This document shows positions 2,505 to 42,783 of a stretch of 51,747 nt of DNA, in pieces (the stretch's first letter is position 1; each line of letters opens with the position of its first letter). This DNA is from Bacillus cereus (GTDB lineage: Bacteria > Bacillota > Bacilli > Bacillales > Bacillaceae_G). Position numbers and translations under genes: made by a program. The notes below the pieces were generated by a model. The model saw nothing but the letters and a program-made list of their open reading frames with translations, was not told the DNA's origin and did not search any database. The stretch is from contig NZ_NUOT01000011.1 in the NCBI RefSeq assembly GCF_002584535.1, forward strand, positions 1-51,747. Direction: 5' to 3'.

Positions 2505-2663
2505 TGAAAATTATATCATATTCTATGAATCAAGTACTATAGCTTTCCCTTCATAGTTATTAACATTTTTGCACAATTATATTTAAATAATTGTCATAAC
2601 AGATTCATTTGCCATTCTCATCCATTTCGATTACACTGAACCTAACAAATAAAGAATCTCGTT

Positions 2664-2749
2664 ATCACAGGGGGAGCCTCGTTGCTGAGAGGGAACAATT
2701 CGTTCCGACCCTTAGAACCTGTTAGTTAATGCTAACGTAGGAATTGTGC
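2664..2749 (+). ncRNA. TPP (THI-box) riboswitch
   Basis: All the invariant blocks of a thiamine pyrophosphate aptamer are present in order: GGGGGAGCC, GCTGAGAGGG, a short variable P3 arm, GACCCTTAGAACCTG, then TTAGTTAATGCTAACGTAGGA. The 5' TCACA and 3' TTGTG ends can close P1. It lies upstream of thiT, which fits thiamine-repressed expression. No strong intrinsic terminator is visible between aptamer and gene; a CCCTA block at 2802-2806 could instead pair with TAGGG of the thiT ribosome site at 2841-2845. Confidence 0.95.
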
Positions 2750-2856
2750 AAGCGTCGAAATACATATACCTCATCATTTTCTACTTACGTATTTCATATC
2801 TCCCTATGGTAAATTATTCTTTTTTTGTGCAACTAAGATTTAGGGGGAATAAGAAC

Positions 2857-3694: not shown

Positions 3695-5482
3695 ATGTAA
3701 ATAAAAGTAAAACAGTACACCATCTACTGTATTATCTACACCATATTCCACACCATGAAGTTCTAAAATATTTTTAGAAATGGCGAGCCCTAGTCCTGTT
3801 CCACCTTTTGAGCGCTGACGAGCTGTATCGATCCGATAAAACCGATCCCAAATCTTATCTAATTGTTCCGCTTCAATATGAGCGCCTTTATTTTCTATAC
3901 AAATCTTTATTCGATTCAGTTCATCTCTTATAGAAATAATAATATCCTTTTTTTCAGGTGTATAACGGATTGCATTCGTTACAAAATTTATAATTACTTG
4001 TTCGATACGATGTTGATTTGCAACAACTTCGATTGGCAAAAGGCATTTATGAACATTCAATTCTTTTTTCGCTATTTCTAATGATAGTTGTTCACATATA
4101 TGCTCAATAACTCCATCAATATAAAAAATATCCATTTTCATTTTATACGTACCAGACTCAAATTTAGCTAACTCCAGCATATCCAAAATTAACATATCCA
4201 TCTTATCGACTTCTTTTTCCATTGCCTGAAAATAATACTCTTTCTTATGCTCTGCCACCCCATCTTTTAAAATAGAAATGCAACTTTTCATAATGCTTAG
4301 CGGAGTTTTCAATTCATGCGAGACACCCGAAATAAATTCTTTTCGTGTGTTTTCTAACTTTCTTTCTTTTTCGATGTCTTGTTCCAATTGTTCAATATGT
4401 GAATGGAGCGTATTAGACAACATATTAATATTTTGTGATAAATCACCAATCTCATCTTTTGAAGTAATGGGGATTCTTTCAGTGAAATCTAAATTTGCGA
4501 TTTTTTTCGTTGTGTCGTTTATTCGTAATAATGGTTTGGCAATTTGTTTTGAATAATAGAAAGAAGCTAGAAAAATAAGTACTAATACAAATGCAATGAT
4601 ATATATATAATAATCCTTCACCATTTGCACCGCTTCATCTACTGGCTGCAAGGAAGCCATTGCGAATATATATGTTAACGAACCATCTTTTTCTTTTATT
4701 GGTTTAATTAATAATTTATATTTTATATCATTTTTTTCATAGTCATTTACTCTTAAGGTATCATTATTATCTTCATTTTCATTTAACAGTAATTCTGCTT
4801 GAAATTCTTTTATACTTTCCAAAAACAAAGTATTTTTATAAATTGGATTCACTACCCCTTTACTATCAGGCAGTTGCACTTTTGTAATGGTTCCCCCAAA
4901 AACAGTACTAGGAAATTGTGCAGCACTTTTTCTTTCCTCTTTCAGCTTAAGAGCCATTTCATTTACTTTCTTATCTAAAGGCTTGTTGGACCAATTTATA
5001 CTTCCCTTGCTTACATTTAATACAGCAGGGACAAATGTAGAATCTTTATCTATCCCATAAATTGAAATTTGCAACCCTGAAAAATACGGGAGTTTTTCAT
5101 TTTCAACCTCTTCTATCGCCATCAGATAATAGAGAGGGATTGTAATGTTTGTTTTTCCAAGTTCCTTCTGCGATAGCCGATCCAACTTTACCTCTAAATA
5201 AAAATCATCTGCATGTTTTAAATTGCCATCACTATCTAACGTCGTAATCCATGTATTATTTTCTCGATAAAAATCTTGTTCCAGTTTCTGAATAGCTTCA
5301 GTGTTACTATTATTCAAATAATCTCTCTCAAAAGAGCTTATATTCGTTTTAATATCGTTCACCTTTCGGTTTGCATAATATTGTTTGAAAAATATTGTTT
5401 GTCCAATAAATATTGTTGCTAGAATTAGCATACATAAAGCCGCTGTAAGAATAAATAATTTGAGTACAATCCCTTTTCTCAT
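3683..5482 (-). CDS. Sensor histidine kinase linked to basI-srtC
   Basis: A 599-residue membrane kinase. It has an N-terminal membrane helix (about 8-30), a roughly 260-residue extracytoplasmic sensor region without a recognisable domain, a second helix (YIYIIAFVLVLIFLASFYY, about 292-310), a HAMP linker, a HisKA dimerisation domain with SGVSHELKTPLS (phospho-acceptor His), and a HATPase domain with N box INFVTNAIRY and G box GGTGLGLAISK. The start overlaps the response regulator stop by 4 bp (ATGA), so the two genes are coupled. It is the last gene of the basI-srtC-regulator-kinase set. The signal is unknown; location suggests the pair controls cell-wall protein anchoring or shares its conditions. 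Confidence 0.93.
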   Translation of the reverse strand: MRKGIVLKLFILTAALCMLILATIFIGQTIFFKQYYANRKVNDIKTNISSFERDYLNNSNTEAIQKLEQDFYRENNTWITTLDSDGNLKHADDFYLEVKLDRLSQKELGKTNITIPLYYLMAIEEVENEKLPYFSGLQISIYGIDKDSTFVPAVLNVSKGSINWSNKPLDKKVNEMALKLKEERKSAAQFPSTVFGGTITKVQLPDSKGVVNPIYKNTLFLESIKEFQAELLLNENEDNNDTLRVNDYEKNDIKYKLLIKPIKEKDGSLTYIFAMASLQPVDEAVQMVKDYYIYIIAFVLVLIFLASFYYSKQIAKPLLRINDTTKKIANLDFTERIPITSKDEIGDLSQNINMLSNTLHSHIEQLEQDIEKERKLENTRKEFISGVSHELKTPLSIMKSCISILKDGVAEHKKEYYFQAMEKEVDKMDMLILDMLELAKFESGTYKMKMDIFYIDGVIEHICEQLSLEIAKKELNVHKCLLPIEVVANQHRIEQVIINFVTNAIRYTPEKKDIIISIRDELNRIKICIENKGAHIEAEQLDKIWDRFYRIDTARQRSKGGTGLGLAISKNILELHGVEYGVDNTVDGVLFYFYLHKKV

Positions 5483-32966: not shown

Positions 32967-33698
32967 ATGTTAACTCCACAACAAATCAATCATTTTAAGT
33001 CTATTTTAGAAAAGCAACAACAAGAGTTAGAACAAACGCTGCAAAATCATGAAGGGACAGACCGTGCTTCTGAACGGGAATCTGTTGGAGAATTATCGGC
33101 TTATGATAATCACCCTGGCGATATGGCTACCGAATTATATGAACGCGAAAAAGACTTTGGACTTATTGAATTTTGGCATAAGCAACTGCAAGATACAAAG
33201 GATGCCCTGCAAAAAATTGAAGCTGGCACATACGGGGTTTGCGAAGTTTCTGGTGAAGAAATCCCGCTGGAAAGATTAGAAGCCATGCCGACTGCTACAA
33301 CTTGTATTGAACATACGACAAATAAATTAAACCTAGGTGCACGTCCCATTGAAGAAGAATTGGTAGAGCCACCGTTTGGCAAATACGATATGGACAGTGC
33401 CGTTGGATATGATGCAGAGGATGCTTGGCAAGATGTTGCTTTATATGGAACATCAGAAACGCCATCTGATTTAGAACGCCGCGACTCGAAGAATTTTGAT
33501 GAGATGTATATGGATGCCGAAGAGCCACGCGGTTACGTAGAAGACTTTGAAAACTTCATCGGAACAGATATGTATGGGAAGAACCCACAGGTGTATGCGA
33601 CAGAAGAACATGAAGAATATGAGCAGATGCTTGATGATTTTGAAGAGCGCACCTTTAAAGGGGAATTATCTCCGAATGAATCTAGTTCAAAAGAATAA
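32967..33698 (+). CDS. YteA-family sporulation protein (DksA/TraR-like)
   Basis: A 243-residue protein. An N-terminal coiled coil (QQINHFKSILEKQQQELEQTL) and ASERESVGELSAYDNHPGDMATELYEREKDFGL are typical of YteA proteins, followed by a DksA-like zinc-finger region GTYGVCEVSGEEIPLERLEAMPTATTCIEHT in which the second and fourth ligands are Ser and His in place of Cys. The acidic C-terminal half is also family-typical. ATG at 32967 follows AAGGTGG. Family members are associated with sporulation; the exact role is not known. Confidence 0.85.
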   Translation: MLTPQQINHFKSILEKQQQELEQTLQNHEGTDRASERESVGELSAYDNHPGDMATELYEREKDFGLIEFWHKQLQDTKDALQKIEAGTYGVCEVSGEEIPLERLEAMPTATTCIEHTTNKLNLGARPIEEELVEPPFGKYDMDSAVGYDAEDAWQDVALYGTSETPSDLERRDSKNFDEMYMDAEEPRGYVEDFENFIGTDMYGKNPQVYATEEHEEYEQMLDDFEERTFKGELSPNESSSKE

Positions 33699-33699
33699 A

Positions 33700-33728
33700 A
33701 AAAGCATTCCGAAATTCGGAATGCTTTT
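33700..33728. terminator. Bidirectional terminator between yteA-like gene and cspD
   Basis: A 13-14 bp stem AAAGCATTCCGAA / TTCGGAATGCTTT flanked by A and T tracts lies between two convergent genes and serves both. Confidence 0.9.
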
Positions 33729-33741
33729 TCTCGCTAGCTAA

Positions 33742-33954
<213 letters not shown>

Positions 33955-34085
33955 CTAAATAAAAATGAAACTATGAATCCACATGAAAAGGTGGATATAA
34001 AGGACATGAATGTATCTCAGACCTAACGCCTTGAATTAAACACGCTTTATTTCCGTACCACATTATGTAGCTCAATAGTGATTTC

Positions 34086-34114: not shown

Positions 34115-34187
34115 ATGAGAACACTTTCATTTCAGTATTTTTTTAAAACTTCACAAAATATGTAAACTATATAAACTAGTAGAAAAC

Positions 34188-34299
34188 CTTTTTTGAGGCG
34201 GGAGAGAGCATCCAGCCTTGCATAGAAACGTTCAGACTCTTTTTAGCCCCTGCCCTGTAAAAAACAAAAGGAGAATGCAAGTAAATGTCACCTTTTGTT
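34188..34299 (+). ncRNA. Candidate structured RNA or cis-acting leader, copy 1
   Basis: This non-coding stretch shares a conserved core (CTTTTTT-AGG-G, GAGAG, TCC, GCCTTGCATAGAA, CAG, CTTTTT, GCCCC) with 42641-42760 on the other strand. After the core comes a hairpin AACAAAAGG / CCTTTTGTT (34263-34271 and 34291-34299). It lies in the roughly 485-bp gap between cspD and the AIM24-type gene, in the same direction as the latter and about 130 bp before its start. I do not recognise a named RNA family. Confidence 0.5.
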
Positions 34300-34427
34300 C
34301 TTCGTAGCAGCAACTTACATGTCGAAAAATTAAAATGACTTTTTGTTAAAAATTAGCAAAATGATTGTTTTCTAATCTCTTTAAATTCTGTACAATATGA
34401 GTATCCACTACATATGAGGTGAAAATA

Positions 34428-42565: not shown

Positions 42566-42602
42566 CCAGTGAATCCCTATTAGATAGGATTTCACCGGCT
42601 AT
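42566..42602 (-). other. Leader hairpin upstream of glgA
   Basis: The minus strand carries AGCCGGTGAAATCC / GGGATTCACTGGCT with a roughly 9-base loop, a 14-bp near-perfect stem, between the candidate RNA and glgA. No T run follows, so it looks like a leader or RNA-stability structure and not a terminator. Confidence 0.55.
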
Positions 42603-42640
42603 ATAAATTCATTTTCATTTTTCAACATATAATCCACGCC

Positions 42641-42760
42641 ATAAAAAAACAAAAGATACCCTCTATTTGCTTGCTTCTTTCGTTTTAACTTAGCATGGGG
42701 CCAAAAAAGGTACTGCCCACTTCTATGCAAGGCAGGACACTCTCTTCACCTAAAAAAAGA
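42641..42760 (-). ncRNA. Candidate structured RNA or cis-acting leader, copy 2
   Basis: On the minus strand: CTTTTTTTAGGTG, GAGAG, TCC, GCCTTGCATAGAA, CAG, CTTTTTT, GGCCCC, then a hairpin AACGAAAG / CTTTTGTT followed by seven T residues. It is the relative of 34188-34299, and the terminator stem is kept by a G-T wobble. It lies between glgD and glgA in the operon direction, so termination here would uncouple glgA-glgP from the upstream genes. Confidence 0.55.
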
Positions 42761-42783
42761 ATGTTTTCATTTATATTGAGATT

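Follow-up and report, generated by a model that had tools for sequence, protein, structure and literature searches.

Two diverged intergenic elements in a Bacillus cereus contig are very probably old copies of a MITE of the IS630 type

The window, by which we mean the whole 51,747-nucleotide stretch of Bacillus cereus DNA analysed here, holds two related elements in gaps between genes. Copy 1 lies on the plus strand in the divergent gap between cspA (minus strand) and AIM24 (plus strand), and copy 2 lies on the minus strand in the glgD-glgA gap, starting ~7 nt past the glgD stop. A cspA thermoregulator is found divergent from AIM24 both in the window (33697-34056, minus strand) and in a relative, G785 (L185:12300-12685, plus strand), a conserved pair. 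A TPP riboswitch lies at positions 2660-2761 (plus strand) of the window.

An initial annotation had taken the two stretches to be homologous, and a local alignment bears this out: 34182-34302 (plus strand) aligns with 42768-42645 (minus strand) over ~120 bases with a score of 69, compared to scores of 25-33 when copy 1 was aligned to both strands of 30 dinucleotide-shuffled windows. The core, GCCTTGCATAGAA, which had been reported to agree at 13 of 13 bases, is indeed exact at 34215 (plus) and 42721 (minus) and has no other exact site in the window. When up to three mismatches are allowed, it gives 14 matches in the window, with no excess over shuffles (mean 15.25). The homology is longer than first described. 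The elements are ~180 bp long and span 34168-34347 (plus) and 42600-42777 (minus), and a whole-element profile matches copy 1 at 34165-34345 (plus; nhmmer E 2.8e-33) and copy 2 at 42780-42601 (minus; nhmmer E 1.7e-27). These E-values are low partly by construction because both copies are in the profile, which was built from 27 copies (25 from G785 plus 2 from the window). Even at E 10, the profile picked up no third copy in the window. The outer ends of the window copies are worn, such that copy 1 is without its 3' TATATA and copy 2 is without its first 5' TA. The features are as follows; L214 carries the end of an IS630 transposase that is described below.

34168..34347, plus strand: MITE copy 1, whole, as assigned from nhmmer, the 5' TATATA, and the BLAST match to G785 copies
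34168-34173, plus strand: 5' TATATA of copy 1, from the sequence
34319..34347, minus strand: 3' terminal inverted repeat of copy 1; the minus strand reads AACAAAAAGTCATTTTAATTTTTCGACAT, and the outermost TATATA is lost
34263..34299, plus strand: 3' hairpin of copy 1, AACAAAAGG / CCTTTTGTT, from the sequence, with arms at 34263-34271 and 34291-34299
42600..42777, minus strand: MITE copy 2, whole, as assigned from nhmmer and from the short gap of six relatives, which holds no element
42600..42628, plus strand: 3' terminal inverted repeat of copy 2, TATATAAATTCATTTTCATTTTTCAACAT, the best plus-strand window match to the IS630 end in L214
42600-42605, element on the minus strand: TATATA end of copy 2, from the sequence
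42765..42777, minus strand: worn 5' end of copy 2, AATATAAATGAAA, from the sequence and alignment with other copies

The same repeat is abundant in G785, a 5.4-Mb relative in a family of 19 genomes. AIM24 of G785 is 79% identical over 166 bases, and this genome seems to lie outside the B. cereus group. We searched 398, 41, 397, and 19 genomes with the AIM24 region (two of these sets are samples of larger groups); no B. cereus group genome was found among them, and the best AIM24 match was 78% over ~700 bases. The intergenic part of this query matched G785 dozens of times, and copy 1 alone gave 42 BLAST matches there (best E 1.2e-10). With the profile, at E<1e-3, we counted 62 copies in 799,764 bp of G785 plus the 2 in the window. 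Simple scaling would give some 400 copies per G785 genome, an estimate that is biased upward because the stretches are the longer contigs and several were picked for holding matches. There are 57 full-length copies (both window copies included), which measure 160-197 bp, share 42-93% pairwise identity, and fall into several subfamilies.

Searches beyond G785 returned little. At E 0.1, nothing in the plasmid collection matched either window copy or a G785 copy used as a third query, and nothing in the phage collection matched copy 1 or the G785 copy searched there. Relaxing the plasmid search to E 10 brought in a single record with copy 1 and 21 records with copy 2; none is from Bacillus, and the matches are short, spanning no more than 23% of the query. 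In a 397-genome sample of the order, queried with a G785 copy at E 1e-5, G785 was the sole match, in a BLAST search that may miss divergence at the level seen in the window. The other 18 genomes of the family gave short, weak matches only to the G785 copy (best E 0.002). These involved four genomes and 25-33 bases (E 0.002-0.009) and were set aside as chance, as were matches to copy 1 in three genomes (E 0.01-0.07). A 17-base pattern picked out 56 stretches in genome contigs, none titled Bacillus, and 5 in viral contigs, and a second pattern picked out 5 viral stretches. We rejected these 66 loci as homologues; the profile gave only five matches among them, each from the second viral set with E 0.27, and we regard these as chance. 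Five viral contigs (L139-L143) hold one 24-base pattern match with an equal weak profile score (E 0.27); they are perhaps one viral lineage, and the pattern match was taken as chance.

In G785, the outer ends of the copies are sharp and read (C)TATATA. The ends are TA repeats, so the exact element boundary is uncertain by two-base steps. The terminal inverted repeat is imperfect, for example CTATATACAAGTGAATAAAAAAACCG... and ...CGAAATTATCATTCACTCATATATAG in one G785 copy. For tests of structure, we aligned 56 of the 57 full-length copies, leaving out one that crosses a stretch boundary. The terminal inverted repeats, (C)TATATACAAGTGAAT / TATATATGAGTGAAT, pair in 74.7% of cells versus 68.2% in shuffles, and they change together: 43 cells are changed on both sides, and the covariation score is 0.151 versus 0.088, each value being reached in 0 of 500 shuffles. 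The number of pairs with a two-sided change (6) shows no excess and was reached in 428 of 500 shuffles. Such covariation of the end repeats is expected for two sites that are bound by one transposase, and it carries no information on RNA. We also observed tandem pairs of the element in G785 (L212:8721-9079, L205:9395-9742, and L204:3162-3512) that overlap by a few bases in a common TA-rich end, as if one copy had inserted into the end of another.

The insertion site can be read where the element interrupts another repeat. At C9:13116 in G785, a copy lies inside a second, unrelated repeat and reads GATGTC-TATATACAAG...CTCATATA-TAGCTCC, compared to GATGTC-TA-GCTCC in the uninterrupted repeat. 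Nine uninterrupted copies of the second repeat were printed, with TCTAG at the site in six and TCCAG in three. The occupied copy at C4:26800 matches this pattern at both junctions, and the one at C9:76337 does so at the right junction only. The empty-site evidence comes from a single host repeat of G785, in which both junctions could be read for two occupied copies and one junction for the third. Comparison of the occupied and empty sites indicates that the G785 copies went into a TA, which was duplicated in the process. The flanks were tallied for 47 copies, in which the 5' TATATA could be placed in 45 and the 3' TATATA in 44. A C directly precedes the 5' TATATA in 25 of the 45 (background C 0.23 in contig C3), and a G directly follows the 3' TATATA in 27 of the 44 (background G 0.18 in contig C3). 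Hence, the flanks show a preference for CTAG-like sites. IS630 elements favor CTAG-like sites. The second repeat of G785, GTCTAGCTCCACCGGCTAGG... (L185:13290-13320 and other places, e.g., C9:10206 and C7:63316), is itself present in high copy: allowing 4 mismatches in 20, it matches 42 times in 800 kb of G785, and the window has no match. Three copies of the element adjoin this repeat, and for two of these the junction is its TCTAG site.

We then compared the ends with those of IS630 transposase genes. The DDE_3 domain (PF13358) matched G785 three times, each time as a fragment, and a complete IS630 was not found in this draft assembly, only three remnants. The NCBIfam model for IS630 matched three open reading frame pieces of L214 and L215, of which one scored above the cut-off, and L216 is a shortened IS630 copy with TATATATAACTGACT at both ends. 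The transposase end in L214 reads TATATATAAGTGATTTAGTTTTTCGACAT, and the 3' end of the element reads TATATATAAATGATTTATAATTTCGACAT in one subfamily. When the L214 29-mer was searched in 800 kb of G785, 33 of 35 matches at up to 7 mismatches were at or in copies of the element. At up to 9 mismatches, there were 57 matches in G785, 41 of them at such copies, compared to 4-16 matches for 20 letter-shuffled 29-mers. The window also matches the L214 29-mer best at the 3' ends of the two copies: on the plus strand at 42600 (copy 2; 9 mismatches in 29), and on the minus strand at 34319 (copy 1; 10 mismatches in 29), where a match at 4577 ties for best. IS630 relatives were also present on plasmids of other Bacillales, for which we fetched six of 291 matching records. 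TATATA lies just past the transposase gene in all six and at both ends in the four for which both ends were examined; the CGACAT part is present in one of the six, and the other five share the TATATA start only. The common ends and the TA site point to an IS630 (IS630-Tc1-mariner) transposase as the probable mover of the element. Two side observations concern the remnants. At L215:1244-1440, a copy of the element lies just past the end of a truncated IS630 transposase remnant, and at L214:762-1037, a second transposase-like fragment on the opposite strand adjoins the IS630 remnant; on inspection by eye, it resembles the IS6/IS240 kind.

At both loci, the relatives examined are without the element. 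A profile scan of the AIM24 locus in 44 relatives' loci, several of which are one place repeated, found the element in one, L092 of G785, where two copies lie beyond cspA on the far side and the AIM24-cspA gap itself is empty. A weak match (E 0.039) in G482, two loci that are one place, was not counted. At the glgD-glgA gap, six of seven relatives, with both sides aligning, have 24-74 bases between the aligned parts versus 343-393 in the window, and the profile did not find the element in those relatives' glgD-glgA loci (best E 0.69). Since both gaps are without the element there, we consider the two window copies to be insertions that are absent from these relatives.

The two copies had been read as a structured RNA, a leader or a small RNA under selection at two loci and acting on AIM24 and glgA-glgP. 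The core and the 3' hairpin are common to both copies, and each copy precedes a gene on its own strand, in keeping with such a role. The same is true of RNA sequencing of two B. cereus strains, in which 84 of 165 and 62 of 155 copies of the bcr repeats were found in mRNA according to the accessible part of PMC3446304. The 3' hairpin, AACAAAAGG/CCTTTTGTT, is present in the copy 1 sequence (34263-34271 with 34291-34299), but across the 56 copies 74.4% of its cells are paired, and no covariation is seen above shuffles. The stem that was said to close with different bases in each copy fares no better. In the 56-copy alignment (A1), the two stem drawings are shifted by ~1 column relative to each other, a shift that depends on the alignment, and they have zero column pairs in common; the copy 1 drawing pairs in 55.6% of cells and the copy 2 drawing in 46.7%, neither above shuffled partners. 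Neither the named stems nor the hairpin thus gives a sign of selection on RNA structure. Rfam 15 at the gathering threshold gave no family at either window copy, nor any match for G785 copies in L185, L197, and L212, and the nearest Rfam match to the copies is the cspA thermoregulator at 33697-34056. A simple scan for the terminator-like ends that had been proposed found 0 sites in either copy's region, and promoter-like sites in the two regions were at chance (2 versus a mean of 1.3 and 0 versus 0.7).

Orientation was counted for 63 of the 64 copies, with both window copies in and one without a gene on one side dropped, using gene calls from a simple codon-score script and disregarding overlaps of up to 30 nt. 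Only one of the 63 extends more than 30 nt into a predicted gene, and the rest are intergenic. With all gaps pooled, the gene downstream lies on the same strand as the element for 39 of 62 copies, as it would for a leader, but this figure arises because divergent gaps (20 copies) outnumber convergent gaps (6 copies); among all G785 gaps of at least 100 bases, the ratio of divergent to convergent is 77 to 59. In tandem gaps, the sole informative type, 19 copies run with the genes (window copy 2 among them) and 17 against, i.e., the orientation of this mobile repeat is random, an outcome that the initial annotation itself had named as counting against its reading. Together with the empty loci in the relatives examined and the absence of an Rfam family, these counts make a leader or small RNA serving AIM24 and glgA highly improbable, and we infer that neither window copy has a regulatory task.

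A related possibility is that the element is a MITE by origin whose interior has been kept, in at least some copies, as a working RNA that affects the stability or attenuation of mRNAs. We consider this unlikely, although a central hairpin outside those first listed gives it some substance: 85.7% of its cells are paired versus 84.4% in shuffles (0 of 500 reach this value), 3 pairs are changed on both sides (6 of 500 shuffles), and there are 11 further pair types (3 of 500). Other bacterial MITEs have effects on mRNA as described in the part of PMC3049150 at hand, and bcr3 is associated with longer half-lives in B. cereus in that of PMC3446304. On the other hand, the differences from shuffles are small, and the kinship of the copies inflates such counts. 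Part of the hairpin is gapped in 11 of 56 copies, and by eye it is not kept in window copy 1. RNAalifold predicted no common pair on the 56 copies, and subfamilies folded apart each have some structure, with none in common. Some constraint inside the element is possible, since its interior is common to the window and G785 and the central hairpin covaries weakly.

The reading that both stretches are old, diverged copies of a ~180-bp non-autonomous MITE, of a type that an IS630-family transposase mobilizes in trans, has a probability of about 0.9 in our estimate. On this reading, the element is a non-autonomous MITE of the IS630 type, like RUP of pneumococcus. As RUP is described in the available text of PMC2229807 and PMC3049150, both are short, gene-less, intergenic, and high copy, with inverted repeats like those of IS630 transposons, insertion at TA sites, and copies within other repeats. 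The present element differs from RUP in sequence, host, and length (160-197 bp versus 107 bp), and its candidate IS630 partner was found in G785 as remnants only. IS630-Spn1 has been proposed as the motor of RUP (PMC2229807 and PMC3049150, in the parts available); PMC3049150, in the same part, also states that no support was found for an association of RUP with an insertion sequence. Nezha, a cyanobacterial MITE with an ISNpu3-like partner, is likewise proposed to be moved by an insertion sequence of the same host, as far as the text of PMC3049150 extends, but its hosts are different.

Whether the element is already published as a B. cereus repeat, namely bcr2 or bcr3 of group A or Bant-1, is a question on which we see the evidence as evenly balanced, and either answer is compatible with the MITE explanation. 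A remark in the initial annotation that this might be one of the bcr repeats was right in kind, in that the element is a MITE-like interspersed repeat. In the accessible parts of PMC3446304 and PMC6542083, bcr1-bcr3 are MITE-like and high copy in the B. cereus group and, like our element, interspersed, mostly chromosomal, and often in untranslated regions or operon gaps. Lengths of bcr repeats are given as 100-400 or 200-400 bp (the available part of PMC6542083 among the sources). Compared by description, however, they differ in two respects: the mobility of BCR is tied to a TTTAT motif (PMC6542083, same part), whereas G785 copies lie at TA and the ends of the window copies are worn, and bcr repeats are said to be confined to the B. 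cereus group, whereas our element is also in G785, which seems to lie outside it. No IS630 link or transposase family is named for bcr1-bcr3 in the portions of PMC3446304 and PMC6542083 at hand. Bant-1, in the part of PMC2267715 available, is likewise a stem-loop family present in high copy number in a genome of the B. cereus group, with 104 (29) copies, but it is listed at 72 bp versus ~180 bp here, again compared by description. Among openly licensed articles, judged largely by title and abstract, we found no report of an IS630-type MITE in Bacillus.

For the MITE explanation, we propose the following course of events. The imperfect terminal inverted repeats, (C)TATATA...TTTCGACAT, would serve as recognition sites for an IS630-family transposase, which would place the element into the TA of CTAG-like sites and duplicate this TA, after which the inserted copies would drift. 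In the lineage of the window, copy 1 would have landed in the divergent gap between cspA and AIM24 and copy 2 in the glgD-glgA gap. A more far-reaching version, which we regard as a long shot, holds that the window lineage shares an undescribed IS630-driven MITE family with a relative from outside the B. cereus group, that the interior hairpin of this family has been kept for altering host mRNAs, and that successive bursts of insertion rewired glgD-glgA and similar gaps.

An apparent regulatory RNA is thus better seen as a mobile repeat with a likely motor, and two diverged copies of a repeat can mimic compensatory change. The ends, the TA site, and the CTAG-like preference provide marks by which the family may be annotated in Bacillus. 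If the element is one of bcr1-bcr3, the IS630 link would supply a candidate transposase family for that repeat.
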